Source of the DNA: Meiothermus sp.
Lineage (GTDB): Bacteria; Deinococcota; Deinococci; Deinococcales; Thermaceae
Direction: 5' to 3'
Length of the DNA stretch: 64,000 nucleotides
NCBI RefSeq assembly: GCF_026004055.1
Contig: NZ_BPIJ01000001.1
Location: 1,488,001-1,552,000 of the forward strand
Shown: positions 17,533 to 62,855 of the stretch, piece by piece
Position numbering within the stretch: position 1 is the stretch's first letter
Layout: every line of letters starts with the position of its first letter
The notes under the pieces: generated by a model
Told to the model about the DNA's origin: nothing
Seen by the model: only the letters and a program-made list of their open reading frames with translations
The model's database searches: none
Program-made: the position numbers and the translations under genes

Positions 17533-17904
17533 AGGGGAGAGTGTAGCGCAAAGCCCCGTTTTGTTCCAACCAACCCAAGCGCCTTACCAAGCCTTTGCTC
17601 CAAGCGCGCCCGGAAAGCACGGGTTTTCCCCTTGCCATCATTTCAACGCTCGCACCAAGCCCATAGAAAGAGCTTCTCCTTATATAAAGCTTGCTTTCCT
17701 TTCCGATAAGGATATCTTTTGTAAAACCGTTGTAAACACGGCCAAAATTCAACTGAGGCCACATTTTGCCGGTTCTAAACAGAATTTAGCCCACCGTTTT
17801 GCGCAACATTGCCACACGGGATTGACATAGATCGCTTTGTTTCGATAATAATAAAACCCGTCCACATACCATCAAATGGACACGCAGAACTAAGGAGGAA
17901 GCGT
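17533..17904. other. Divergent control region upstream of arsenite oxidase
   Basis: About 370 bp, markedly richer in A and T than the genes on either side, with no convincing gene. It holds the aio promoter at 17822-17849 and TTGTAAAACCG/TTGTAAACACGG direct repeats around 17717. Operators for the ArsR-family regulator would be expected here, but I see no single dominant palindrome. Confidence 0.4.
17822..17849 (+). promoter_or_regulatory. Promoter of the aioBA operon
   Basis: TTGACA (17822-17827), 16-bp spacer, GATAAT (17844-17849). This is the best sigma-A match in this part of the window. It would give a leader of about 48 nt before the aioB ATG, with AAGGAGG as ribosome-binding site at 17892-17898. 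Confidence 0.7.
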
Positions 17905-18384
17905 ATGGTCGTCAGTCGCAGGCGCGTCGTGCAAGTGTTGGGTGGGGTCACCATGGCCTCGCTCACCGGCGCGGGCAAGGCCCAGTTCTGGTTTGCTCCC
18001 AGCCTGACCTATCCCGCCATCAAGATCGGCAACGTCAACAGCCTCAAAAACAACGAGCCGGTCTACTTCAACTACCCCGACGCCCGCTCCCAGGGCATCC
18101 TGGTCAAGCTGGGCCGCCCGGCCATCGGTGGGGTGGGGCGCGAACGGGATATTGTGGCTTTTTCGGCCACCTGCACCCACATGGGCTGCGGCGTGCAGTA
18201 CAAGGGCGGGCGCTTCCTCTGCCCCTGCCACTACTCCATGTTCGACCCGGCCAAGGCCGCCGTGGTCTACCAGGGGCTGGCTAGCACCGGGCTGCCGCAA
18301 ATCCAGCTGGGCATCGCACAAAACGGCGACATCTTCGCCAGAGCCGTCAACGGCCTGATCTGGGGCCGGGTCAAGAACATCTAA
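17905..18384 (+). CDS. aioB: Arsenite oxidase small (Rieske) subunit
   Basis: A 159-residue Rieske protein with a Tat signal (SRRRVVQVLGGVTMASL). The start is set at 17905, behind AAGGAGG; the frame is open further upstream, but that part lies in the promoter. The [2Fe-2S] ligands are C90, H92, C106 and H109 (CTHMGC and CPCH). C95 and C108 are placed to form the disulfide seen in Alcaligenes AioB. It carries electrons from the molybdenum subunit to a cytochrome c or similar acceptor in the periplasm. It also supplies the Tat signal for AioA, which has none. aioA follows after 10 bp. Confidence 0.93.
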   Translation: MVVSRRRVVQVLGGVTMASLTGAGKAQFWFAPSLTYPAIKIGNVNSLKNNEPVYFNYPDARSQGILVKLGRPAIGGVGRERDIVAFSATCTHMGCGVQYKGGRFLCPCHYSMFDPAKAAVVYQGLASTGLPQIQLGIAQNGDIFARAVNGLIWGRVKNI

Positions 18385-18394
18385 GGGAGGGAAC

Positions 18395-20974
18395 ATGTCC
18401 AACATCGGTCGTCGTGATGCACTGCCCATCCCGCCCACCAACGCAGAGGTCAAGAACACCGTCTGCCAGTACTGCACGGTGGGGTGTGGCTACAAGGTAT
18501 ACACCTGGCCGGTCGGGTCGCAAGGGGGCCTGGCCGCCAACCAGAACGCTTTTGGGGTAGACCTGCGCAACCCGCAGAACCCCCTGGGGGGCTTGGTCTA
18601 CACCGAGACCATGCACTCCATCGTGACGCGCAAAGACGGTCGCCAGTACCACGTAGTAATCGTGCCAGCTGGCGACTCTCCCATCAACTTCAAACGCGAC
18701 CACTCCTCCCGCGGGGCCACCAACGCCGTGGCCACCTGGAGCGACGCCCGCGCCACCAAGGAGCGGCTCAAGTACCCGCTTTTGCGCATGGGCGACCAGT
18801 TCCAGGTCATCACCTGGGACGAGGCCCTCACCATCCTGGCCGGGGTGGCCAAGGGCATCCGCGATAAGGACGGCAACGACGACAACATTGCAGTCAAGGC
18901 CTTCGACCACGGGGGCTCGGGCGCCGGCTTCGAAAACAACTGGGGGGTGGGCAGCCTCTTCTTCAAAGGCTTCAGCGTCAAGCACATCGCCATCCACAAC
19001 CGCCCGGCCTACAACTCCGAGGTCTGGGGCAGCCGCGAGCGGGGCGTCCACGAGCTCAACTACGACGCCATCGACGCCCGGCTGGCCGACACCATCGTGC
19101 TCTGGGGTGCCAACCCCTACGAGACCGCCAGCATCTTCTACACCGAGCACATGCAGCCCAACATCCAGGGGGCTACGCTGGATGAAAAGCGGCGCAATCT
19201 AAGTCGGGGGGAGCCGGTCGAAGCGGGCTATTTGATTGTGATAGACCCTCGTCGCACCAGCAGCCTGACCATCGCCGAGGCCATCGCCAAAGACCGCACC
19301 CTGCACCTGCGGCCCAACCTGGGCACCGACTACATCCTGGCCAACGCCATCGCTCGGGTCATGTGGGAGCGCAAGTACTACGATCAGCGCTTCCTGGAGA
19401 CCCGCACCGACATGGCCAAATTTGAGGAGTATAAGGAGAAGTCCCTCAAGCTGGGCACCCCCTACGCCCAGTTCATGGCCGAGGTAGAACGCATCACCGG
19501 CGTACGCCGAGCCGACATCGAGAAAGCCGCCGACTGGATCGCCAAGCCCAAGGCCGGGGGCTTTGCCCGCCGCACCCTCACCATCTACGAAAAAGGCATC
19601 ATCTGGAACATGAAAAACTACGACCAGGTGGCGGCCATCGTACAGATGGCGGTGCTGGGCAACAACGTGGGACGGGCCGGAACCGGCTGTGGCCGCCTGG
19701 GTGGGCACCAGGAAGGCTACGTACGTCCTCCCTCCCCCACCCCGGGCTCGATCTACAACGGGGGGCCGCCCGTCAACGTGGACAAGTACCTGACCGATGG
19801 CAAAGGCAAGCTGTACTGGGTGATCGGCACCAACCCCTACCTCTCCACCCCCAACAACCAGCTCTTCCGCAAGCGCATCCGCGAGCGCACCAAGGCCCTC
19901 TCGGACTTCCTGGGTCAGTCCGGTGAGCCCGGCACCACCCAGGAGCTGGTGGCCAAAATCCTGGAGGGCCTGGACGCCACCGGCGGGCTGTTTATGGTGG
20001 TGCAAGACCTCTACCTGATCCACACCGCCATGGACGCCCACCTGGTGCTCCCGGCCAGCGCCTGGGGCGAAGCCAACCAGACCTCCATCAACTGCAACAG
20101 CCGCCTCCTGCGCCTTTACGAGAAGTTCATGGATCCGCCGGGCGAGGCCAAGCAGGACTGGGAAATCTGCAAGCTGATGGGCCTCAAGATGGCCGAGCTG
20201 TACCGGGCCGAGGGCAAAGAAGAAGAAGCCAAAAAGTTTGAGTTCGGCAAGAACTGGCGCACCGACGAGGACGTCTTCCTGGACGGCGGCAACTCCTACC
20301 CCAACAACGCCATCCCGGCCAGCGAGGAGGCCACTCTGCCCGCCGAGTGCTACAAGGGCGTCACCTATGCCTTCTTGCGCCAGGTAGGGCAGCAGGGCAT
20401 CCGCACCCCGGTGCGGATCGAAAATGGCCGGCCGGTGGGCACCCTGCGGCGCTACAGCGTAAAGTTCGGCACCAAGGACGGTAAGTTTAGCTGGTACGGC
20501 ACCGACGACTGGGAAGGCTATCCCGAAGAGGTAGCCAAGTACCTGGAAGGCGAGAAGGCCCAGAAGTACCCCTTCTGGATGACCACCGGCCGGGCCCAGG
20601 CCATCTGGCAGACCATGTATAACGACCGCTTCCTGCCGGAGAAGATGAACACCCTGCCCATGCCCTACATCGAGATTCACCCGCAGGACGCCCAGCGGCT
20701 CGGGCTGAGAAACGGCGACCTGGCCCAGGTCTGGAACGAGGAGGGCAACGGCACCTTCCTGGTCTACGTGAGCGACTCGGTGCGGCCCGGCATGATCTTT
20801 GCCCTGCAGTACCACCACCTGGGCACCTCCAACAGTATGACCCCAGGCTACACCGATCCCAAGACCACCATCCCCTGGTACAAGGGCACCCGGGTGGCCA
20901 TCCGCAAGGTGCGGGGCGCCCTGCCCGACCTGCAGAACAACACCAGCTTCTTGCAGCAGAACAAGTTTGACTAA
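18395..20974 (+). CDS. aioA: Arsenite oxidase large (molybdopterin) subunit
   Basis: An 859-residue molybdo-bis-MGD enzyme that oxidises arsenite to arsenate. The N-terminal cysteines C24, C27 and C31 (CQYCTVGC) lack the fourth Cys, the AioA signature for a [3Fe-4S] cluster. There is no signal peptide, consistent with co-export with AioB. Long AioA-type segments are present (FKRDHSSRGATNAVATWSD, IYEKGIIWNMKNYDQVAAIV, GRAGTGCGRLGGHQEGYVRP, QYHHLGTSNSMTPGYTDP). GGGAGG lies before the ATG. A hairpin follows the stop codon. Confidence 0.95.
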   Translation: MSNIGRRDALPIPPTNAEVKNTVCQYCTVGCGYKVYTWPVGSQGGLAANQNAFGVDLRNPQNPLGGLVYTETMHSIVTRKDGRQYHVVIVPAGDSPINFKRDHSSRGATNAVATWSDARATKERLKYPLLRMGDQFQVITWDEALTILAGVAKGIRDKDGNDDNIAVKAFDHGGSGAGFENNWGVGSLFFKGFSVKHIAIHNRPAYNSEVWGSRERGVHELNYDAIDARLADTIVLWGANPYETASIFYTEHMQPNIQGATLDEKRRNLSRGEPVEAGYLIVIDPRRTSSLTIAEAIAKDRTLHLRPNLGTDYILANAIARVMWERKYYDQRFLETRTDMAKFEEYKEKSLKLGTPYAQFMAEVERITGVRRADIEKAADWIAKPKAGGFARRTLTIYEKGIIWNMKNYDQVAAIVQMAVLGNNVGRAGTGCGRLGGHQEGYVRPPSPTPGSIYNGGPPVNVDKYLTDGKGKLYWVIGTNPYLSTPNNQLFRKRIRERTKALSDFLGQSGEPGTTQELVAKILEGLDATGGLFMVVQDLYLIHTAMDAHLVLPASAWGEANQTSINCNSRLLRLYEKFMDPPGEAKQDWEICKLMGLKMAELYRAEGKEEEAKKFEFGKNWRTDEDVFLDGGNSYPNNAIPASEEATLPAECYKGVTYAFLRQVGQQGIRTPVRIENGRPVGTLRRYSVKFGTKDGKFSWYGTDDWEGYPEEVAKYLEGEKAQKYPFWMTTGRAQAIWQTMYNDRFLPEKMNTLPMPYIEIHPQDAQRLGLRNGDLAQVWNEEGNGTFLVYVSDSVRPGMIFALQYHHLGTSNSMTPGYTDPKTTIPWYKGTRVAIRKVRGALPDLQNNTSFLQQNKFD

Positions 20975-50325: not shown

Positions 50326-50769
50326 CTAGGTGGTTTGCGGGGTTCGCACGCGCACCGCATCGCCCAACCGCACCACCCCGCCCCGGAGCACCCGGGCATA
50401 CAGGCCCCGCCGGCCCAGTAGCACCTTGGGCAGGCGCAGGTCGAAGACTGAAAGCGAGTTGCATACGGTACAAACCCCGCTCAGCTCCAGCAGCGTCTCC
50501 CCTACCTCAAGCTGCGCCCCCGGGCCGAGCAGGTGGGGGTCAAAGTCTAGCAGGATGTTTTCGCCCAGGGCACCCAAAGGCAGTTGGATTCCGGCTAAAG
50601 CCGCCCGCTCGTAGCTCGAGCGCCCCGCTACCAACACAGCCCGGTCGGGGTGTTTGCCAAAGTGGCGGTCTCCCTCCAGACCCTGGCCCTCGACCAGCCT
50701 GGCCTGGGCGATGGCAGGCTTGGGCAGGGTGCTGCCCTGGCCTGCGTGAAGAGAGAGGACTTTTGGCAT
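50326..50769 (-). CDS. MOSC-domain protein
   Basis: A 147-residue single MOSC domain (the molybdenum cofactor sulfurase C-terminal fold). It has EGQGLEGDRHFGKHPDRAVL near the N-terminus and LELSGVCTVCNSLSVFD, whose cysteines match the persulfide-accepting Cys position. MOSC proteins handle sulfur for the molybdenum cofactor or act as molybdoenzymes. Directly downstream of a sulfite oxidase-type operon, a role in Moco or sulfur metabolism is likely. The ATG overlaps the stop of the cytochrome gene by one base (TGATG). Confidence 0.85.
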   Translation of the reverse strand: MPKVLSLHAGQGSTLPKPAIAQARLVEGQGLEGDRHFGKHPDRAVLVAGRSSYERAALAGIQLPLGALGENILLDFDPHLLGPGAQLEVGETLLELSGVCTVCNSLSVFDLRLPKVLLGRRGLYARVLRGGVVRLGDAVRVRTPQTT

Positions 50770-51461
50770 CAAGGAAGGCTGAGCTTGGCCCGTTCGGCGA
50801 GCACTTGCTGCGGCGAGAGCTGTTTGCGCAAGCCTTTGATCTCGCTTTCGGTATATGGCTTGAAATCCTTGAGTAGCTTGTCGTTGCCCCAGGCGGTAGC
50901 AATGTAGTTCAGGACTGCCACCAGTTGAGCGTCGCTCAGGCTGGAAAAGCCGGGCATGGGGGTGCTGTAGTTAACGCCGCCCACCCGAATCGAACCCTGA
51001 AGCCCATTGACGATGACCAGAGGCAGGTACTCACGCCCCCCTTTGGTATTGAGAATATCGGCAACGTGCTTGACCAGGGGAGGAAAAGCCCCCGGTACCC
51101 CCGCACCGTTCGCTTGGTGGCAACCCTGGCAAGCGGCATAGGCCTGTGCGCTGGCACTGGCAGCCGGAGCTTGTTGCGCCGAGCTGCTGGAAGGGCCAAA
51201 ATTGGTAGCCAGGTACTCTACTATAACCTTGCGTTCCTCCGGACTCACCGGCGCACCGTTGTTGATCATCTGCCCAACCAGGAAATCCCAGTCGGTCGCA
51301 CTTAAGCGCTGATTAACCGTTACTTCCAGGCCATGGCAGATCGCACACTTCTGTTCCACCAGGCTTTTGCCAGGCCCTTCTGGTAGCTGGGTTTGTGCAA
51401 CGGCCCAGATTAATCCACTCAGCGCAATACTTGCAAAAACCCAGTAACTTTGCTTCCTCAT
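50769..51461 (-). CDS. sorB: Di-haem cytochrome c, probable electron acceptor of the sulfite dehydrogenase
   Basis: A 230-residue exported cytochrome with two c-type haem sites, CAICH (39-43) and CQGCH (111-115), joined by a Ser/Ala/Gln linker (SSSSAQQAPAASASAQ). The N-terminal signal is KQSYWVFASIALSGLIWAVA. The second domain has the Met-ligand region STPMPGFSSLSDAQLVAVL. Gene order places it behind the molybdenum sulfite dehydrogenase gene by 67 bp, matching SorAB-type sulfite:cytochrome c oxidoreductases. The start at 51461 has GAGG upstream. The first domain resembles quinohaemoprotein-type c domains. Confidence 0.78.
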   Translation of the reverse strand: MRKQSYWVFASIALSGLIWAVAQTQLPEGPGKSLVEQKCAICHGLEVTVNQRLSATDWDFLVGQMINNGAPVSPEERKVIVEYLATNFGPSSSSAQQAPAASASAQAYAACQGCHQANGAGVPGAFPPLVKHVADILNTKGGREYLPLVIVNGLQGSIRVGGVNYSTPMPGFSSLSDAQLVAVLNYIATAWGNDKLLKDFKPYTESEIKGLRKQLSPQQVLAERAKLSLP

Positions 51462-51528
51462 GACCACCTCGTCACAAAAACGCTACCCGCCTGTTGAAGA
51501 TTCCTGGTCAAGGCGGGTAGCCGATAGA

Positions 51529-52779
51529 TCAGCCGACTTTGATTTTTACTTTATCCACAGCGTTCCATTCGTAGCCGTTGGGGTTCCAGAAAATTGCACC
51601 ATCGATGGGCTGACTGCGTCCTAGCGCATCGGTGGCCCTGGCCCAAACCTCGGTGTCGCCGGCTGCTACCAGCACCCGCAGGCGCCAGAGGTACCACCCA
51701 TAGGGCGAGGAAGGCTTTTCCAGGTTGGCAGTTTGCCAGCTTCGCCCGCCGTTGGTCGAAACCTCTACCGAGGTGATCGGGGCTGCGCCATCGTTCCAAG
51801 CAGCTCCCCTGACCTCGATAATGCCACTTACCGCTTCGCCTTCGGTAGGACTAAAGATGATGGCCTTTACATTTTGCTTCCAGTTGGGGCGGCTGTTCTC
51901 GAGCGTGAACTGGAAACTGCTGCCAACCGCAATGGGATTGTTGGGGACGCGGTAGCGCGGAATCATGGTGTTGTTGTTGGAAGGAGCGGCCTCGAGGCGC
52001 AGCTTATTCACCCACTTGATGTTGTTGATGCCATAGTAACCGGGTATGACCAGGCGCAGCGGCCCACCATGCACCGTGGGGAGGGGTTCCCCGTTCATCT
52101 CATAGGCCAAAATAGCGTTGGCCAGCACATCCGCCAAGGGAATGCTGCGTTCGATGTCGGCGGCCGTGGCAGAGGCGGGCTGGTCGGCGCCTTCAGCTGT
52201 AAGGAAACGGGCTTCGGCCTTGATACCCGCGTCCTGGAGCAGCGTTGCCAGCTTAACCCCTTTCCAGCGCACGTTGGCCAAGCTACCCCGCTCCCACTGG
52301 GCACCGCTGGCCCGCGCATACTTAGAGAAGAAGCTGCGCCCATTCCCGGAGCATTGCAGCACCATCTCGAACTCTGTTGCAGGCAGGTTTTTGAGCTGCG
52401 AGAGGCGCAGGGTAAGGGGTTTATCCACCAGCCCGGTTACCTCTACGATCCAGTCGTCCACTTTTGGGGGGTCGGTCGTGTTGGCCATTCCCGGAGGCAC
52501 CGGCTGGTTGTTGCGGATATACATGATGTTCTTGGGGGTGAAGCGGTGTTGCCGCAGCAGGGTGACCGGGGTCTCGAGCTCGATGGGATTGGCATTGCGT
52601 ACAATCAAGCCGGGGTCTTTCCCAGCCACCAAAGCATCGGCTGTGGGTGTCTGGGCCTGGGCAAACTGAAACACGCTTGGGAATACCCCCACCATGGTAG
52701 CCGCAGCACCCGAGAGCCGCAAAAACTTACGCCGATCCATGCTTTCCTGCAACAAAACTTCCTTCTCTTGCTCTTGCAT
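51529..52779 (-). CDS. sorA: Sulfite:cytochrome c oxidoreductase molybdenum subunit
   Basis: A 416-residue sulfite oxidase-family enzyme with a Tat signal (MDRRKFLRLSGAAATMVGVF). The start is set at 52779, behind AGGAGG. The Moco-binding cysteine is C143 in LQCSGNGRSFF; VHGGPLRLVIPGYYGINNIKW is typical. The C-terminal dimerisation domain of sulfite oxidases follows (VRGAAWNDGAAPITSVEVST). It oxidises sulfite to sulfate in the periplasm and passes electrons to the cytochrome encoded next. A sulfite-oxidising enzyme of this family is known from Thermus thermophilus. Confidence 0.88.
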   Translation of the reverse strand: MQEQEKEVLLQESMDRRKFLRLSGAAATMVGVFPSVFQFAQAQTPTADALVAGKDPGLIVRNANPIELETPVTLLRQHRFTPKNIMYIRNNQPVPPGMANTTDPPKVDDWIVEVTGLVDKPLTLRLSQLKNLPATEFEMVLQCSGNGRSFFSKYARASGAQWERGSLANVRWKGVKLATLLQDAGIKAEARFLTAEGADQPASATAADIERSIPLADVLANAILAYEMNGEPLPTVHGGPLRLVIPGYYGINNIKWVNKLRLEAAPSNNNTMIPRYRVPNNPIAVGSSFQFTLENSRPNWKQNVKAIIFSPTEGEAVSGIIEVRGAAWNDGAAPITSVEVSTNGGRSWQTANLEKPSSPYGWYLWRLRVLVAAGDTEVWARATDALGRSQPIDGAIFWNPNGYEWNAVDKVKIKVG

Positions 52780-52846
52780 ATAAGGCCTCCTGGTTTTTTT
52801 TGTATTTTTCCAATCCCCAAGGCTTTCATTTGTAAGATACCATAAG

Positions 52847-52859
52847 GTTACATTGTAAC
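52847..52859. promoter_or_regulatory. 13-bp inverted repeat upstream of sorA
   Basis: GTTACATTGTAAC is a perfect palindrome around a central T, about 68 bp before the sorA ATG. It is a candidate operator for the sulfite-oxidation genes; its binding protein is unknown. Confidence 0.4.
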
Positions 52860-52887
52860 TATTTGAGTACCCAGCGTGGGTATATAA

Positions 52888-55022
<2,135 letters not shown>

Positions 55023-55056: not shown

Positions 55057-56046
55057 CTACAAACCGCCCAGGTATTGCAGCAAAGCCGCCAGCTCCGCCT
55101 CATTGAGAGGAACCGCCGGCATCTGGCCCCGCCCTTTGAGGACAATTTCCCTTACCGCCTCCGGCACCTTGCGGATGGGGTTGCCCTGCAAGCGGGGGCC
55201 AATGCCGCCTTGGGCCTGGGCACCGTGACAGGCCGCGCACTTACTCAAGTACACCTGCTGACCGGTAGAAGTGGCATTGAGCTGGTCTTTCGCAGTTTGG
55301 ATGAGGTTTTGCACCCGCTCGCGGGCCTCGCCCCCGGCCTTCAGGTAGCCCTCCCAGGCCCTGATGGCCTCGGCGGGCCGGCCTAGCTGGAAGTAGGCGT
55401 TGCCCAGAAAAAGCCAGCCCTCGGCCACCTCGGGCTCGGCCTGCACCGCGAGCTCGAGGGCCTGCGCTCCTTCCTCGGGCCGCCCGCTCATGAAGAGCAG
55501 CATGCCAATACGCCGCACGGCGTTGGCATTGCGGGGCTCGAGCTCGATCACCTTCAGGTAGCCCTGCACCGCCCGCTCAAAGTCTTGCAGGTCGTAGGCC
55601 TTGTTGGCGTAGGCCAGCCAGTCGGCGGCTTTGCCGCTCTGCTCGGCCTGGCGCTCTAGATTGCCCAGTTCGCGGGCCTCGTTGCGGCTGGTAATGATGG
55701 TCTCGCCGGGCAACCGGGGCACCGTGTAGGCCCAAAGCCCCACCCCCAGGGCGACCAGGCTCAGGGCTACGGCCCCCAGCGTGACCGGGCTCAGGCGGCG
55801 AGGCGCGGGGTTTTCTGAGCCCAACTCAGCCAGTTGGCGCTCGAGCCGCACCGCCTGGGCTAAGAGGCGCTTGCGCTCCTCCCCCTCGGCTTCTTGGGCC
55901 AGCGATTTGAGCACCCCCAGCTCGGCCCGGAGCTCCTCCGGGCGGGGGCTTGCGGGAAAGGGTTGGGCCGATTGGAAGAAAGGCCGCAGGGCATAGGCCA
56001 GGGCCAACACAAAGAGCAGTGCAAGAAGAAGGTAGGCCAGTATCAT
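55057..56046 (-). CDS. CcmI-like TPR protein fused to a c-type cytochrome domain
   Basis: A 329-residue membrane protein. Two helices near the N-terminus (ILAYLLLALLFVLALAYAL and VTLGAVALSLVALGVGLWAY) flank a cytoplasmic helical region, as in CcmI/CycH. About three TPR repeats follow (residues 140-250; EGWLFLGNAYFQLGRPAEAI). Unlike CcmI, the protein then continues into a class I cytochrome c domain with CAACH near residue 270, GIGPRLQGNPI, and a Met-ligand segment GQMPAVPL. It overlaps ccmH by 4 bp. It probably holds apocytochrome for haem attachment and is itself a cytochrome. Confidence 0.82.
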   Translation of the reverse strand: MILAYLLLALLFVLALAYALRPFFQSAQPFPASPRPEELRAELGVLKSLAQEAEGEERKRLLAQAVRLERQLAELGSENPAPRRLSPVTLGAVALSLVALGVGLWAYTVPRLPGETIITSRNEARELGNLERQAEQSGKAADWLAYANKAYDLQDFERAVQGYLKVIELEPRNANAVRRIGMLLFMSGRPEEGAQALELAVQAEPEVAEGWLFLGNAYFQLGRPAEAIRAWEGYLKAGGEARERVQNLIQTAKDQLNATSTGQQVYLSKCAACHGAQAQGGIGPRLQGNPIRKVPEAVREIVLKGRGQMPAVPLNEAELAALLQYLGGL

Positions 56047-56543
56047 GATTTTCCTGGGGTTTGTAGCTCGGCCTCGAGGCGGGCAATTTCTTCTTCGGAA
56101 ACGTCGCCGATGGGCGCTTGAGCCTGGGCCCTGACTCGTTTGGTGTACTGCCACAGCCCCAGCCCCAGCAACGCCAGACCAATCAGGGGCGAGAGCCAGA
56201 CCCACAGCGTCGGGCCCCGGGCGGGCGGCTCGTACAGAATCCAGTCGCCGTAGCGCTCCACAAAAAACTGCCGGATCTCGGTCTCACTCTTGCCCTGGGC
56301 TAGCTGCTCGGCAATAATCCGGCGCATCTCTACCGCAATGCCCGCATTGGACTCCGCCGCCGACTCCCCCTGGCAGACCGGGCAGCGCAGCTCGCGGGCA
56401 ATTTCAAAGACCCTGGGCGGGAAGTCGGGGGGTGGGGTGTTGGGGGTAGGCTGAGCGAACGAAACTGCCGCAAGCCAAAGGCCCAAAGCCAGAAGCCAGA
56501 ACCATTTTTCTGCTACCCTGTCCCCTATCCCCGGTACCCTCAC
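56043..56543 (-). CDS. ccmH: Cytochrome c maturation protein CcmH
   Basis: A 166-residue thiol-disulfide partner in haem ligation. The start is the GTG at 56543, which overlaps the ccmG stop by 4 bp (GTGA). A signal helix (WFWLLALGLWLAAVSFAQ) precedes the CcmH core ELRCPVCQGESAAES with redox pair C54/C57, the helical segment AVEMRRIIAEQLAQGKSETE and FFVERYGDWILYEPP. A C-terminal membrane helix follows (WVWLSPLIGLALLGLGLW). It reduces the CXXCH cysteines of apocytochromes in the periplasm. Confidence 0.93.
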   Translation of the reverse strand: MRVPGIGDRVAEKWFWLLALGLWLAAVSFAQPTPNTPPPDFPPRVFEIARELRCPVCQGESAAESNAGIAVEMRRIIAEQLAQGKSETEIRQFFVERYGDWILYEPPARGPTLWVWLSPLIGLALLGLGLWQYTKRVRAQAQAPIGDVSEEEIARLEAELQTPGKS

Positions 56544-57064
56544 TGCAACACCTGCCTCAGATAACCCTGCAACTGAGCCTCGCTCAACTCCCCGGCGTGG
56601 CGGGCCCGCACAATGCCGTTTCGGTCGATCACAAAGGTCTCGGGTACGCCATAGTAGCCGTACTCGATGCCGATGCGGCCCCGGCCATCGTAAACGCTGG
56701 GAAAGGTCAGGCCGTACTGCTGCACGAATTTCAGGGCCTCGCTTTCCTTGTCCTGGACGTTGACCCCCAGAATCAGCACCCGGTCTTTGTACTGTTGGTG
56801 ATAGCGCTCGAGCAGCGGGGCCTCGGTGCGGCAGGGGATGCACCAACTGGCCCAGATATTGAGCAGAACCGGCTTGTTCAGGCCCTCTCCCACCCCCATC
56901 TGGGGGCCGTACTGGGCCCGGTAGGGCTCCAATAGCGGCAGGCTAAAGCTGGGCGCCGGCTTGCCTACCAGTACCGACTTGAGCTCGTTCGGATTGGGGC
57001 GCTGCATCCCCCAGTAGAAAAGCCCTCCCAGCAGCAACACCCAGATGGGCCAGAACCTAATCAA
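56540..57064 (-). CDS. ccmG: Thiol:disulfide interchange protein CcmG/DsbE
   Basis: A 174-residue TlpA-family thioredoxin tethered by one N-terminal helix (FWPIWVLLLGGLFYWGM). The redox site is WCIPC (C75 and C78) in NIWASWCIPCRTEAPLLERY, and the cis-Pro segment is YGVPETFVIDRNG. The start is a TTG at 57064 with GAGGTGG upstream, because an ATG just before it runs into a stop. It passes reductant from CcdA to CcmH during cytochrome c maturation. Confidence 0.93.
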   Translation of the reverse strand: MIRFWPIWVLLLGGLFYWGMQRPNPNELKSVLVGKPAPSFSLPLLEPYRAQYGPQMGVGEGLNKPVLLNIWASWCIPCRTEAPLLERYHQQYKDRVLILGVNVQDKESEALKFVQQYGLTFPSVYDGRGRIGIEYGYYGVPETFVIDRNGIVRARHAGELSEAQLQGYLRQVLQ

Positions 57065-57079
57065 GGGCCACCTCTTTCA

Positions 57080-59071
57080 TCAGTCTCCTGCCGTAGGGGC
57101 CATCTGGCGGCTGGTCACCCTAGCCCCGCTGGGCCAGAGAATATACAGCGTCCCCAACACAATAATCAGGCCCGATACCCACAGCCACCAGACCATAGGG
57201 GTCACGATCAGCTTGAGGGTTGCCCACTGACCTTTTTCCTGGTCGAACTGCATCAAAACGAAGTAGTAGTCGTTGTAGAGCGAGTATTTGACCACCGGGG
57301 TGGCCAGCGGCGAGCCCATCTGGGGGTAGAAGTTGAGCCGGGTCTCATAGCGGCCGTCCGCCCCCCAGCCCTCGCGCCCGGTCGAACGCACCTCGATGGG
57401 GGCAATGGCGGCAAAGCGGTTGGCCTCTTCCCGGGCCTGGATCGAAAGCAGGCGCACCTGGAGCCCCCGGGTCTGCCAGGTCTCGCCGACCTGGAGGGTC
57501 TTTTGTTCGGTGACCCGGTAGGTCTGGCTAAAGGCGATGGTCAGGGCAGCCAGGGCAATGCCGAAGTGCACGATGTGCGAGCCAAAGCGACGTTTGTGGC
57601 TCGAGGCCAGTTCCACCAGGGCTTGCCCCGCCGAGATTCCCAGCGAGCGGGCCCGCTCGCGCACGCCCTGGGCCACCATCAGCCAGATGGCGGTCAGGTT
57701 GTAGGCAAAAAGCCCAATGGCCAGCGAGACCCCCAGGGTCAGGCCCAGTCCAAAGCCCAGCAGGGTACCCACCCCCAGGGCCACGAGCATGGCCGAGAGG
57801 TGCCGCACTACCTGGGCGTTGGTATTCCGCCAGGGCAAAACCGGCCCAATGCCCATCAGGAGCAGCATGAAGATGCCCAGGGGAACGGAAACCTGGTTGA
57901 AGAAGGGGGCCCCCACCGAGACCTTGGCCCCACTCACAATTTCCACCACCAGCGGCCACAAGGTGCCCAGCACCACCACAAAGGCAAAGGTGCCAAAGAA
58001 CAAAGCCCCGGCCAACAAGGCCCCCTCGCGGCTTTTCCAGCGCACCTCGCCGGCCTCGCGCACTTCGGCGGAAACCCGGGCCAAAAGCCCCAGCCCCCCT
58101 GCCATCACGCCCAGCAAAAACAGCAAGAACCAGGCCCCCACCGGCCCACTGGCAAAGGCATGCACCGACTGGATCACCCCGGAGCGGGTCAGGAAGGTGC
58201 CAAACACCGTAGCCGCGAAGGCCAGGGTGATGAAGGCGAAGTTCCAGGCCTTGAAAAGCCCCTTGCGCTCTTGCACCTGGGCGGTGTGCAAGAAGGCCGT
58301 AGCCAGCAGCCAGGGGATGATGGAGGCGTTCTCGACCGGATCCCAGGCCCAATAGCCGCCCCAGCCCAGAATCTCGTAGCTCCACCATTTGCCGGTGAAG
58401 ATGGCGGCGGTCAGGAAACCCCAGGCCACCAAGGTCCACCATCGGGTCTCGAAAATCCAGCTCTGGAAGCGCTTGGCCACCATGGCCGCCACTGCATAGG
58501 CAAACGGCACCGAGAGTCCCACAAAACCCAGGTACATCAAGACCGGGTGCACCGCCATCATCCAGTGGTTTTGCAGAAGCGGATTGGTGCCCCGGCCATC
58601 GGGGGGTGGGTTGGGCACGGCATCGAAGGGATGGGCCACAAAGACCATCACCGCAAAGAAGAAGGCCTGTACGGCAAACAGCGTTCCCAGTGCCACCGGG
58701 GCCCGCCAGACGTCCAGGCTCTGACCCGCCCGCAGGCTCACCAGCCAGGTGTAGGCGGTCTGGAGCAGGGCCCACAGCAGAATGGAGCCCTCCAGCGCCG
58801 CCCAGGGCGTGACCAGCTTGACCCACAGGGGGTTGTTGGCGGAGCTGTGGTTGGCCACGTAGGAGACGCTAAAGTCGTTGGTCAGGATGGCCCACTCGAG
58901 CGCCCCAAAACTCACCAGTGCGGCCAGCAAGGAGAGGGCCGAGAGGCGCTTGGCCGCCTCGAGGTAGCGCCCATCCCACAGGGTGTGGGCCAGTGTCGCC
59001 AAAACCAGGCCCAACAGCGAAAAAATCAGGGCCGCCACAAGGGCAATACCGCCCAACAGCCCCGGCGTCAT
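57080..59071 (-). CDS. ccmF: Cytochrome c haem lyase subunit CcmF
   Basis: A 663-residue polytopic membrane protein of the haem-handling family. The WWD domain is near residues 232-246 (GWGGYWAWDPVENASIIPWL). Conserved histidine regions include NHWMMAVHPVLMYLGF and LATAFLHTAQVQERKG, with FGTFLTRSGVIQSVHAFA after the WWD motif. A periplasmic C-terminal region (about 520-630) follows. It joins haem delivered by CcmE to apocytochrome cysteines with CcmH and CcmI. ccmG lies 15 bp downstream. Confidence 0.96.
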   Translation of the reverse strand: MTPGLLGGIALVAALIFSLLGLVLATLAHTLWDGRYLEAAKRLSALSLLAALVSFGALEWAILTNDFSVSYVANHSSANNPLWVKLVTPWAALEGSILLWALLQTAYTWLVSLRAGQSLDVWRAPVALGTLFAVQAFFFAVMVFVAHPFDAVPNPPPDGRGTNPLLQNHWMMAVHPVLMYLGFVGLSVPFAYAVAAMVAKRFQSWIFETRWWTLVAWGFLTAAIFTGKWWSYEILGWGGYWAWDPVENASIIPWLLATAFLHTAQVQERKGLFKAWNFAFITLAFAATVFGTFLTRSGVIQSVHAFASGPVGAWFLLFLLGVMAGGLGLLARVSAEVREAGEVRWKSREGALLAGALFFGTFAFVVVLGTLWPLVVEIVSGAKVSVGAPFFNQVSVPLGIFMLLLMGIGPVLPWRNTNAQVVRHLSAMLVALGVGTLLGFGLGLTLGVSLAIGLFAYNLTAIWLMVAQGVRERARSLGISAGQALVELASSHKRRFGSHIVHFGIALAALTIAFSQTYRVTEQKTLQVGETWQTRGLQVRLLSIQAREEANRFAAIAPIEVRSTGREGWGADGRYETRLNFYPQMGSPLATPVVKYSLYNDYYFVLMQFDQEKGQWATLKLIVTPMVWWLWVSGLIIVLGTLYILWPSGARVTSRQMAPTAGD

Positions 59072-59084
59072 ACAAACCTCCTGA

Positions 59085-59516
59085 TCACTGGGTCTCCTCG
59101 ATCAGCTTGCGCACCTGTTCGGGCGTCCACCCCTCTTTGGGGGCCTGGTAGGTTTCAGAGTGCTTGACCAGCAGGTTCTGGCTCACAAAGGTCTCACCCT
59201 GGAACCTGCCCTCCACCACCACCCCCCGGTTTTCGCCGAAGAGGGCCGGGGGGGTAGCGCCTGAAGACCTGATGGGAATCTCCTTGACCCCATCGGTCAC
59301 CACAAAGCGCAGTTCCAAAGTTTGGGGGTTGTAGTCCAGCGACCCCTGCTTGACCAGCCCCCCCAGGCGCACCGGGCGGTTTTGGTAGCGGTCTACTTGC
59401 TGGAAGTACTCGCTGGGGGTGATGAAGTAGACCAGGTTCTGACCCAGACCACCAAAAATCAGGTAGGCCAGGGCCCCGGCCAGCACCACCAGTCCGATGA
59501 TGTATTTGGGCTTCAT
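59085..59516 (-). CDS. ccmE: Haem chaperone CcmE
   Basis: A 143-residue periplasmic haem chaperone tethered by one helix (YIIGLVVLAGALAYLIF). The OB-fold core is present (LGGLVKQGSLDYNPQTLELR, FGENRGVVVEGRFQGETFVS). The covalent haem site is intact: H119 and Y123 in LVKHSETYQAP, the HxxxY type. The start is set at 59516, since the upstream extension overlaps ccmD. It accepts haem at CcmC and delivers it to CcmF. Confidence 0.95.
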   Translation of the reverse strand: MKPKYIIGLVVLAGALAYLIFGGLGQNLVYFITPSEYFQQVDRYQNRPVRLGGLVKQGSLDYNPQTLELRFVVTDGVKEIPIRSSGATPPALFGENRGVVVEGRFQGETFVSQNLLVKHSETYQAPKEGWTPEQVRKLIEETQ

Positions 59517-59656: not shown

Positions 59657-60349
59657 TTACACCTCTTCTTTGGCCGCCTCGCGGGCCGCAATGAGGCTCC
59701 GCAGTCGCACCAAACCGATAAATAGCAGCGTGAAGGCCGCCAGGTTGACCAACATGGGTATGAGGATGGTCGCGTCTACGTTAATTTTGCCGGTGGTGAG
59801 GTCGATGGACTGGGTCTGGTGCAGGCTGCGCCACCACTTCACCGACATGTAGCTGATGGGCACGTTGATGGAACCCAAAATGGCCACCCCCGCAGCGGCC
59901 TTGGCCCGCAGCTCGGGGTCTTCGATGGCCCCCCGCACCACCACATACCCCACATAGATAGCAAACAGAATGGCGGTGGTGGTCAGGCGGGGCTCCCAGT
60001 CCCAGTACACCCCCCAGGTGGGCCGGGCCCAGAGCATCCCGGTGAGCAGGGCCAGGGCCATGAAGATCAGGCCCACCTCCACCACCGCCGCGGCCACCCG
60101 GTCGTGGTGAGCTTTGCGGCGGATTAGATAGGCCACCGAGTAGCCCAGCGCGGCAAAACTAGCCACGTAGGCCATCCAGGCCATGGGTACATGGAGATGA
60201 AAGATTCGGGCCACAAAACCCTGGCTCTGGTCGGGGGGGGCGGTAATGGCCAGGAAAAACCCCACCCCTGCGCCCAGCAGGCCCAGCCCCAGAATGCCCA
60301 GGGTCAGGCCGTCGAGTCGGTTGGTTGGGTTAGAACGTGCAAGCTGCAT
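59657..60349 (-). CDS. ccmC: Haem exporter protein CcmC
   Basis: A 230-residue membrane protein with about six helices. The WWD motif lies near residues 110-120 (TWGVYWDWEPRLTTTAIL), with flanking histidines in IFHLHVPMAWMAYV and in SVKWWRSLHQTQS, the axial haem ligands of the family. It loads haem onto CcmE. The ATG has AAAGGAGAGG upstream. It begins a run of six or more ccm genes downstream, but 490 bp of non-coding DNA separate it from ccmB. Confidence 0.95.
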   Translation of the reverse strand: MQLARSNPTNRLDGLTLGILGLGLLGAGVGFFLAITAPPDQSQGFVARIFHLHVPMAWMAYVASFAALGYSVAYLIRRKAHHDRVAAAVVEVGLIFMALALLTGMLWARPTWGVYWDWEPRLTTTAILFAIYVGYVVVRGAIEDPELRAKAAAGVAILGSINVPISYMSVKWWRSLHQTQSIDLTTGKINVDATILIPMLVNLAAFTLLFIGLVRLRSLIAAREAAKEEV

Positions 60350-60838: not shown

Positions 60839-61504
60839 TTAGCCCTCGAGCATGTACGGAAAAACCATCGCGCACACCGTCACGTAAATCACATCAAAAA
60901 CCAGCAACAAGCGCAGCCAGTCCAACAGCTCGGCCACCGGAACGCCCTCTGCAAGCCCTTGGGTAAAGCGCACCGCAGCCAGCACCACCGGGATCACCAG
61001 GGGGAAAAGCAACAGCGGCAGAAGCACCTCCCGCCCCCGCAGGCGGGCCAGCATCCCGGCGTAAAAGGTGGAGATGGCCGCATAACCCAGGGAGCCCAGC
61101 ACCAGCACCAGCATGAACCAGCCCCAGTTTTGCAAGGGTAAGTAAAAAAGCCCGGCGGTCAGCACCAGCAAGGCCAGCCCCACAAAAAGCAACAGAACGA
61201 ACTGAAACAAGAGCTTCCCAAAGTAAATCCACTCCCGGCTGCCCGGGGTAAGGAGCAGGTCGTCGAGGGTGCCATCCTCGACCTCGAGGCCAAACGCCCG
61301 TCCGGCCAGCAAGCTGCCCGCAAAGGCCAGCGCGACCCACAGCACCCCCGGCGCCGCCTTTTGTAGGTTCTGGGGGTTGGGGCCAAAGGCCATGGCCAGG
61401 ATAAAGAGCATCACCGCCAAGAAAAATACGGCCGACAAGATGCCGGTGCGACCCCGAAACTCCAACACCAGATCGCGCCAGGCCAGCCAGAAAATCCGCT
61501 GCAC
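60839..61504 (-). CDS. ccmB: Haem exporter membrane subunit CcmB
   Basis: A 221-residue ABC-transporter membrane subunit with six helices. Family segments include LAWRDLVLEFRGRTGILSAV at the N-terminus, AFGLEVEDGTLDDLLLTPGS and LLPLLLFPLVIPVVLAAVR. It works with CcmA to release haem-loaded CcmE from CcmC. It lies 75 bp after the end of the frameshifted ccmA frame on the same strand and is probably co-transcribed with it. Confidence 0.95.
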   Translation of the reverse strand: MQRIFWLAWRDLVLEFRGRTGILSAVFFLAVMLFILAMAFGPNPQNLQKAAPGVLWVALAFAGSLLAGRAFGLEVEDGTLDDLLLTPGSREWIYFGKLLFQFVLLLFVGLALLVLTAGLFYLPLQNWGWFMLVLVLGSLGYAAISTFYAGMLARLRGREVLLPLLLFPLVIPVVLAAVRFTQGLAEGVPVAELLDWLRLLLVFDVIYVTVCAMVFPYMLEG

Positions 61505-61579: not shown

Positions 61580-62168
61580 TTAACCGGGCCGGAGCTCCAC
61601 CACCCGGTCTACCAGGGAAAGCCAGCTTTGGTCATGGGTCGCAATCACCACCCCCCCCGGAAGCCCTGGCAAAGCTCACCAGGTCTTCCAGCAGGCTCCG
61701 CCCCTGCGCATCCAGGGCGGCTTCGGGTTCGTCCAGCAGCCAGATGTCCGGGTTTTGCAAGCGCAATCGGGCCATGGCCAGACGCTTTTTCATGCCGCTG
61801 CTGTAGCCCAGCACCGGCTTATCGTGGGGGAGCCCCACTTGCTCCAGGGCCAGGCGAATCTGGGCGCGATCATCGGCCCGCCCATCGAGTCGCAGGGCAT
61901 AGTGCAGGTTTTCGGCGCCGGTAAAGTGTCGGTGAAACGCCGGGGGATTGGCCAGAAAACCCACCCTTCCCTCGAGCCGGACGGTGCCCTGGGTAGGCCG
62001 CACCAGCCCGGCCAACACCCGTAGCAAGGTGGTCTTGCCCACCCCGTTGGGCCCTACCAGGGCCACCGCTTCGTGCTTGGCCAGCCGGAAGTCCAGGCCG
62101 CGCAGCACCCAGTCCCGGCCGTAGCGTTTGGCAACGGATTGGGCCTCAATCAGCATCGGTTCCATCAT
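61580..62168 (-). CDS. ccmA: Haem exporter ATP-binding subunit CcmA, with frameshift in a G8 tract
   Basis: ABC ATPase with Walker A GPNGVGKTT (residues 39-47), signature LGYSSGMKKRLAMARL and Walker B IWLLDEPEAALD. The uninterrupted frame stops at 61632, after ARASGGGGDCDP. At the C8 run 61651-61658 (G8 in the mRNA), removing one base gives SGGVVIATHDQSWLSLVDRV and a stop at 61580, restoring the H-loop histidine (ATHD) and about 195 residues, the normal CcmA length. This is a sequencing error, a real mutation, phase variation, or slippage. The ATG is at 62168; an in-frame ATG at 62156 is also possible. Confidence 0.85.
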
Positions 62169-62174
62169 ACGTGC

Positions 62175-62855
62175 TTACTGGCCGATTAGGTTTTTCTCGA
62201 GGTTCAGCAGCCACTCGGGCGTGATTTTGAGGAAAAAGCTGTTGAGTTGGGTAAAGGTGCCGGTCAGCATCAACACCCCAATGGCCACCAGCACCACCCC
62301 GGCCGTCACCTCGGCCCAGCGGGAAAACCGAGCTGCCCGGCGCAAAACCGGGCGAACCCGGTCGGCAAAAAGGGCCACCAGCAAAAAGGGAATGGCCAGG
62401 CCCAGGATGTAGGACAACAAAAAGCCAACCCCCCCTCCTGCCGCCGTGAGGGTTAGAATGCCGCCCAGAATCGGGCCAATGCAAGGCGTCCAACCCAACC
62501 CCAAAACCAGGCCCAGCACAAAGGCCCCCCAAGGCCGGCCGGTATCCCCCTGGTAGCGCAGGTTCACCCCCCATTTGGGCTTCAAGCCCAGCATGTAGAG
62601 CCCAAACAGCACCATCACCACCCCGCCCACCTGGCTTAGCCCTTGCCGGTTTTCCGCCAACAGCCCGCCCAGAAGGGTGAAGGGCAACCCCAACAACAAA
62701 AACACCAGCGAAAAACCCCCCACAAAGAAGAAGGCGTTGAACAGAGGCCGCCCCCGCTCGCCGCCCAAATAGAGCAGATAGGTAGGCACCAGCGGCAACA
62801 CGCAAGGAGACAGAAAAGAAAGAATCCCGGCCAAGAAGGCAGCGGTCAAGCTCAT
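62175..62855 (-). CDS. ccdA: CcdA-type cytochrome c biogenesis membrane protein
   Basis: A 226-residue DsbD-like membrane protein with six helices. The two redox cysteines are C18 in LSPCVLPLVPTY and C125 in GWTPCIGPILGG. It carries electrons from cytoplasmic thioredoxin across the membrane to CcmG. It is first of a run with ccmA (6-bp gap) and ccmB. A TATGCT box 6 nt before the ATG implies a leaderless transcript. Confidence 0.94.
   Translation of the reverse strand: MSLTAAFLAGILSFLSPCVLPLVPTYLLYLGGERGRPLFNAFFFVGGFSLVFLLLGLPFTLLGGLLAENRQGLSQVGGVVMVLFGLYMLGLKPKWGVNLRYQGDTGRPWGAFVLGLVLGLGWTPCIGPILGGILTLTAAGGGVGFLLSYILGLAIPFLLVALFADRVRPVLRRAARFSRWAEVTAGVVLVAIGVLMLTGTFTQLNSFFLKITPEWLLNLEKNLIGQ

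Follow-up and report, generated by a model that had tools for sequence, protein, structure and literature searches.

The window analysed here is a stretch of 64,000 nucleotides of Meiothermus sp. DNA (contig NZ_BPIJ01000001.1) that carries, on one strand, an operon of ccm genes in the order CcdA/DsbD-like, ccmA, ccmB, ccmC, ccmE, ccmF, ccmG, ccmH, followed by a gene that fuses ccmI to a cytochrome c domain and, as the last gene of the operon, a Rieske gene (Table 1). The fusion gene occupies one intact reading frame from ATG to stop, and its start codon lies in a 4-nt overlap with the stop of ccmH. At the other end of the operon, the CcdA/DsbD-like membrane protein is, judged by family resemblance, the probable electron donor of CcmG. 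Promoter and terminator scans at the locus gave nothing useful.

Table 1. Genes of the ccm–Rieske operon and parts of the fusion protein, with positions in the window.
Feature	Position	Strand	Basis or remark
CcdA/DsbD-like membrane protein	62175..62855	-	DsbD-like model NF045694 E 1e-15, far below cut-off; SPCVLP and TPCIGP cysteines
ccmA, frame broken near 3' end	61632..62168	-	family models
ccmB	60839..61504	-	family models
ccmC	59657..60349	-	family models
ccmE (haem chaperone)	59085..59516	-	family models; start read by eye
ccmF (haem lyase)	57080..59071	-	family models
ccmG (membrane-anchored thioredoxin-like)	56540..57064	-	TIGR00385 9.8e-33, below its cut-off
ccmH (thiol-disulfide component, LRCPVC)	56043..56543	-	PF03918 1.3e-34; GTG start read by eye
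ccmI-cyt c fusion gene, 329 aa	55057..56046	-	reading frame, Pfam, hydropathy
first membrane helix, residues 1-26	55969..56046	-	hydropathy; helix 2-24 in AF2 model
residues 27-83	between both membrane helices		predicted cytoplasmic helical loop, charged
second membrane helix, residues 84-110	55717..55797	-	hydropathy; helix 87-108 in AF2 model
TPR domain, residues 121-255	55282..55686	-	Pfam TPR models, AF2, Foldseek; predicted periplasmic from topology
cytochrome c domain, residues 258-326	55069..55275	-	PF13442 E 2.2e-13
CAACH haem-attachment motif, residues 270-274	55225..55239	-	CxxCH invariant, 102/102 rows
Met309, likely distal haem ligand	55120..55122	-	Met in 102/102 rows; ligand role by analogy with class I cytochromes c
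Rieske [2Fe-2S] protein, twin-arginine-like N-terminal anchor	54435..55022	-	PF00355 22.9 bits (cut-off 20.3); 34 bp behind ccmI-cyt c

The frame of ccmA ends near position 61650 (minus strand) in SFARASGGGGDCDP and a stop codon, and a neighbouring frame runs on to GGVVIATHDQSWLSLVDRVVELRPG and a stop codon, which we take to be the usual CcmA ending. The break corresponds to a frameshift at a run of G, which may be a sequencing error or else a true or a programmed shift. In two other Meiothermus records (L119 and L120), the stretch of about 890 bases ahead of ccmB yielded no recognisable ccmA.

Hydropathy analysis with 19-residue windows places two membrane segments in the fusion protein, in windows that begin at residues 1–8 and 84–92. 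Several TPR models of Pfam score over their cut-offs (TPR_2, 1.7e-10), and the C-terminal match to Cytochrome_CBB3 (PF13442) scores 50.8 bits (cut-off 27). The protein contains only two cysteines and one histidine in total, all of them within the CAACH motif, and any CxxCH arises in 1 of 200,000 shuffles of its sequence. A cytochrome c domain that combines CxxCH with a distal methionine is of the class I type, and both elements are found here. An earlier note on this DNA had described a TPR protein and a CAACH cytochrome domain in one polypeptide, with a Rieske protein encoded next: the intact frame, the Pfam matches and the phylum-wide recurrence described below bear out the former, and the family match of the adjacent gene the latter.

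Only the two Meiothermus records L119 and L120 proved to be full-length relatives among 80 loci in a contig scan with a general cytochrome pattern, and the AF2 model was therefore built from three sequences. Its pLDDT values are 72–93 in ten-residue blocks over the TPR region (residues 121–260) and 31–44 in the cytochrome domain; a helix is predicted with low confidence at the C-terminus (residues 316–327). The Foldseek listing for the model contains TPR chains and no cytochrome.

The identity of the N-terminal part emerges from profile comparisons rather than from single models. The CcmI-specific TPR model PF23914 gives 35.6 bits on the window protein, under its cut-off of 42, and the CcmI model TIGR03142 gives no match to the window protein itself; among relatives, TIGR03142 matches 10 of the 21 that were aligned (best E 1e-6) and PF23914 matches 15 of 19 at E 0.001. 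When the profile of the 21 relatives is compared by hhalign with that of eight unfused CcmI proteins, columns 1–262 align with 1–265 of 267 (probability 99.8%, E 2.9e-30). The reference set comprises seven proteins from a search of Chloroflexota and one, L236, whose genome is recorded as gammaproteobacterial, and all eight genes adjoin ccmF, ccmG or ccmH. The seven stop after the TPRs, and the remaining one extends into an Ig-like domain (PF23892). Residues 1–256 of the window protein thus align end to end with complete unfused CcmI, and the fusion is therefore a complete CcmI with an added cytochrome. PF23914 has 10 matches in the window's genome; a search there with the fusion-family profile also returned 10 matches, of which the window gene is the sole one to extend over the N-terminal part of CcmI, so that the unfused copy elsewhere in the genome, which the earlier note had named among the findings that would speak against its reading, was sought and not found. 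The CcmI-like identity proposed in that note is upheld by the hhalign alignment and by the position of the gene in a ccmFGH-I arrangement. With two N-terminal membrane helices, a TPR domain, full-length homology and a gene beside ccmH, the window protein is, on sequence criteria, the CcmI protein of System I.

The distribution of the fusion was assessed in 111 genomes of the phylum, representing five families. A search with the window protein gave a match in 102, and a profile made from longer versions in family f5 recovered five further full-length copies. Reading of the loci shows a cytochrome domain behind CcmI in 101 of the 111 genomes and in all five families. Two genomes of a single genus, g30, have a complete CcmI without the cytochrome domain (G108, G109), three have a reading frame cut at a contig end ahead of the cytochrome region (G075, G076, G079), and no CcmI was found in the remaining five (G003, G014, G020, G021, G098). 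The domain pair that the earlier note had suggested looking for across the Thermaceae is indeed present there; it is, however, not confined to that family. The recurrence of the fusion in 101 of the 111 genomes and in the two Meiothermus records, whose proteins are 81–89% identical to that of the window, rules out an assembly or sequencing artefact. The fusion was apparently gained in the ancestor of the phylum and would thus be an old feature of these heat-loving relatives of Thermus and Meiothermus as a whole.

Both CxxCH and the distal methionine are kept in all 102 aligned cytochrome domains (101 genomes, one of them entered twice). In other Thermaceae genera (28 sequences), the cytochrome domain has a mean identity of 71% to the window protein, the TPR domain one of 56% and the N-terminal part one of 50%; the corresponding values in family f4 are 60%, 48% and 43%. 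Outside the genus of the window, the cytochrome domain is therefore better conserved than the chaperone part that carries it.

Several loci depart from the common form. In four draft genomes of one family, all counted among the 101, the frame is broken or shortened ahead of an intact cytochrome domain (G068, G060, G064 and G069; loci L060 7703–8813, L093, L095 and L097). In family f5 (L048–L051, L053, L054 and others) CcmI is about 500 aa long, and the TPR block before the cytochrome domain is apparently doubled. Genus g30 (L052 6975–8426, L117 1205–2506) shows a low-complexity tail of Pro, Ala and Thr in place of the cytochrome domain and keeps the Rieske gene. A 541-aa protein with three CxxCH motifs also matches the fusion profile (L074 1636–3261, G096).

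No fusion was found in 1,589 genomes sampled from four other phyla (400, 398, 396 and 395, assigned as in the record titles), with up to five candidates scored per genome at E of at most 1e-18, nor in 50 further genomes reached through loci. None of nine unfused CcmI-like proteins with ccm context from these searches contains a CxxCH. The literature searched, which took in few subscription papers, contains no description of a CcmI–cytochrome fusion, in agreement with the remark in the earlier note that no characterised example was known. The CcmI family itself is already known; it is the architecture and the partnership with a Rieske protein that appear new. CcmI/CycH of Rhodobacter capsulatus and Pseudomonas aeruginosa, as described in PMC3884852, shares with the window protein the two N-terminal helices, the cytoplasmic loop, the periplasmic TPR domain and a gene beside ccmH. 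In proteobacterial CcmI, the place of the cytochrome c domain is taken by a domain of Ig-like alpha/beta type (PF23892 in L236). Fused CcmI TPR domains have a precedent in E. coli, where PMC3601427 presents NrfG and a CcmH that is a CcmH–CcmI fusion; in the latter, however, CcmI is joined to another assembly factor, whereas in the window protein it is joined to a putative cytochrome substrate. The added domain shares CxxCH, distal methionine and PF13442 with class I, CBB3-type cytochromes c and differs from them in being a covalent part of an assembly factor.

The Rieske gene adjoins ccmI in 96 of 106 loci, that is, in 91 of 101 (including the two of genus g30) and in all of five more, and the four cluster ligands are intact in each of the 91 adjacent Rieske relatives (91/91). 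Of the ten loci without adjacency, three lie at a contig edge and six are from family f4; in the tenth, G002 of family f2, no Rieske gene was found within the 3.9 kb fetched behind ccmI. The six f4 genomes have a Rieske orthologue elsewhere, with 56–65% identity to that of the window. In G009 the operon is split, with ccmF-G-H-I(c) at 1.98 Mb and ccmA-B-C-E, directly followed by the Rieske gene, at 0.43 Mb; the Rieske gene thus clings to the ccm genes and not to the fusion gene only. The latter group (L264 4579–7800) stands alone, with a CcdA-looking ORF upstream. Conversely, both genomes of genus g30 have a Rieske gene beside a CcmI that lacks the cytochrome domain, so that the machine can run without that domain. 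The pairing of Rieske and cytochrome genes is therefore strong and not obligate, and in our reading both proteins are functionally linked to maturation with neither absolutely dependent on the other.

The window Rieske protein has the usual cluster motifs, separated by a longer spacer than in bc-type motifs, and two arginines precede its N-terminal anchor. Its best match in the protein data bank is an AioB chain of arsenite oxidase, and QcrA-type Rieske chains are matched too. The native electron acceptor of the arsenite oxidase AioAB is given as cytochrome c552 (PMC10071563). The family thus shares its cluster-binding motifs with AioB and with the Rieske proteins of bc complexes; it differs from the latter in the longer spacer and in being encoded with ccm genes, and no cytochrome b was recognised, by its start sequence, among the downstream ORFs of 18 loci. 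On contig C2, a separate, weaker Rieske homologue has as neighbours a cytochrome-like ORF and an ORF that probably encodes a membrane cytochrome b.

The interpretation we favour, with a probability of about 0.45, is that the fusion protein is the CcmI subunit of the CcmF–CcmH–CcmI haem lyase, that it has a built-in electron-transfer haem and that it retains its chaperone work. Docking on CcmF and CcmH and the presentation of apocytochromes, which are ordinary CcmI work, would fall to the paired membrane helices together with the TPR domain; CcmI is described as binding the C-terminal helix of apocytochromes and as forming complexes with CcmF and CcmH (PMC3884852). The C-terminal cytochrome domain would be loaded with haem by the same lyase, so that the chaperone would be its own substrate, and once loaded the domain would remain anchored there as a carrier of single electrons. 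On one side this carrier may exchange electrons with the CcmF haem, the CcmE haem or the new holocytochrome, and on the other with the dedicated membrane-anchored Rieske protein or with other periplasmic carriers. The earlier note had likewise suggested that the assembly factor is also a substrate and perhaps a redox relay to the Rieske protein, a suggestion that the sequence data support in part. Haem loading, location in CcmFHI and electron exchange with its direction are the steps that we infer. A c-type cytochrome that feeds the maturation machine has been reported in Shewanella oneidensis, where NapB donates electrons to CcmG (PMC8782879); NapB, however, is a separate nitrate-reductase subunit presented in a bypass role, whereas the fusion cytochrome is part of a lyase subunit. 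Since the CcdA/DsbD-like donor encoded upstream of ccmA would serve the thiol branch, the haem branch is the likelier site for an extra carrier. Several observations count against the favoured interpretation: the CcmI of genus g30 lacks the cytochrome domain beside a retained Rieske gene, the Rieske and cytochrome genes are separated in the six f4 genomes, G002 has no recognised Rieske gene in the stretch behind ccmI, the window protein falls short of both CcmI models, and the thiol branch is already provided with a donor in the operon.

The potentials of His/Met cytochromes c and of Rieske clusters normally lie well above that of the CcmF haem. Unless the potentials are tuned, electrons would therefore leave the lyase rather than enter it. 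Such values would favour the drawing of electrons off the CcmF haem, the CcmE haem or the product, for example to keep or restore an oxidised state, and the thermodynamics argue against a simple reduction of haem. A study of 2023 that works from the crystal structure of Thermus thermophilus CcmF gives the membrane haem of CcmF at −147 mV and proposes it as the reductant of the haem to be attached; there, the reductant of this membrane haem is called unknown (PMC10663686). How System I reduces haem ahead of its attachment is unsettled. CcmF with its membrane haem b, the cytochrome c of CcmI and the Rieske protein might even form a small bc-like chain within the synthase, which would determine whether the haem at the attachment step is oxidised or reduced and be the missing electron partner of CcmF throughout the phylum, an extension that we regard as doubtful.

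Other explanations differ in what they assign to the cytochrome domain. It might act as a pseudo-substrate or in quality control, as a test substrate built into the lyase, with the protein's own C-terminal helix lying in the TPR groove until another apocytochrome displaces it or haem arrives; the haem would then gate or report the state of the machine, and electron transfer would be secondary. This is consistent with the recognition by CcmI of the C-terminal helix of its clients, as described in PMC3884852, with the presence of such a helix at the protein's own C-terminus (316–327, in the low-confidence part of the model), with cytochrome domain and TPR groove being parts of one polypeptide and with the invariance of the haem ligands. 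A pseudo-substrate, however, would not need a dedicated Rieske gene, adjacent in 96 of 106 loci, and the AF2 model shows no readable docking; we consider this role unlikely. It is also rather improbable that the domain is an ordinary membrane-tethered respiratory electron carrier that is merely translated together with CcmI and takes no part in maturation. Rieske proteins and class I cytochromes c are standard respiratory partners; the domain is of a common CBB3/c550-like type and can be lost, as in genus g30. Yet throughout the five families the domain remains attached to CcmI and encoded behind ccmH; the loci read gave no recognisable cytochrome b gene in its vicinity, and as a respiratory shuttle a carrier bound to a lyase of low abundance would probably perform poorly.

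The loss of the domain in one genus without loss of the ccm genes would equally suit a vestigial or neutral fusion retained by descent. Haem ligands that are invariant in 102 of 102 rows, in a domain conserved above the rest of the protein, disfavour that explanation, which is extremely unlikely. Finally, the failure of TIGR03142 on the window protein and the sub-threshold score of PF23914 could mean that the protein is not CcmI at all and that a TPR–cytochrome redox protein without a chaperone role took the place of CcmI in the operon. The end-to-end profile match is, however, to unfused CcmI of ccmFGH-I operons, TIGR03142 does match 10 of 21 relatives, topology and operon position equal those of CcmI, and no other CcmI was found in the genome; substitution of this kind is very unlikely.

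A CcmI with an electron-transfer haem of its own, as in the favoured interpretation, opens the question of the electron source or sink of the haem-attaching machine. Its haem site and the dedicated Rieske protein are both candidate partners in electron transfer, and each can be removed or altered separately in tractable Thermus strains. If the domain is loaded with haem as proposed, it also provides an example of bootstrapping, since the assembly factor would depend on itself for its own maturation. In addition, the fusion is a clean evolutionary marker: every one of the five families has it, and it was seen in none of the genomes sampled elsewhere.

Two further sets of redox genes lie in the window. 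Positions 17809–20974 (plus strand) hold aioB and aioA, the genes of the small (Rieske) and large subunits of arsenite oxidase, both over curated cut-offs. Positions 50769–52914 (minus strand) hold two genes, one for a SorA/SorT-like sulfite dehydrogenase that scores below the curated cut-offs and, behind it, one for a SorB-type c-type cytochrome.
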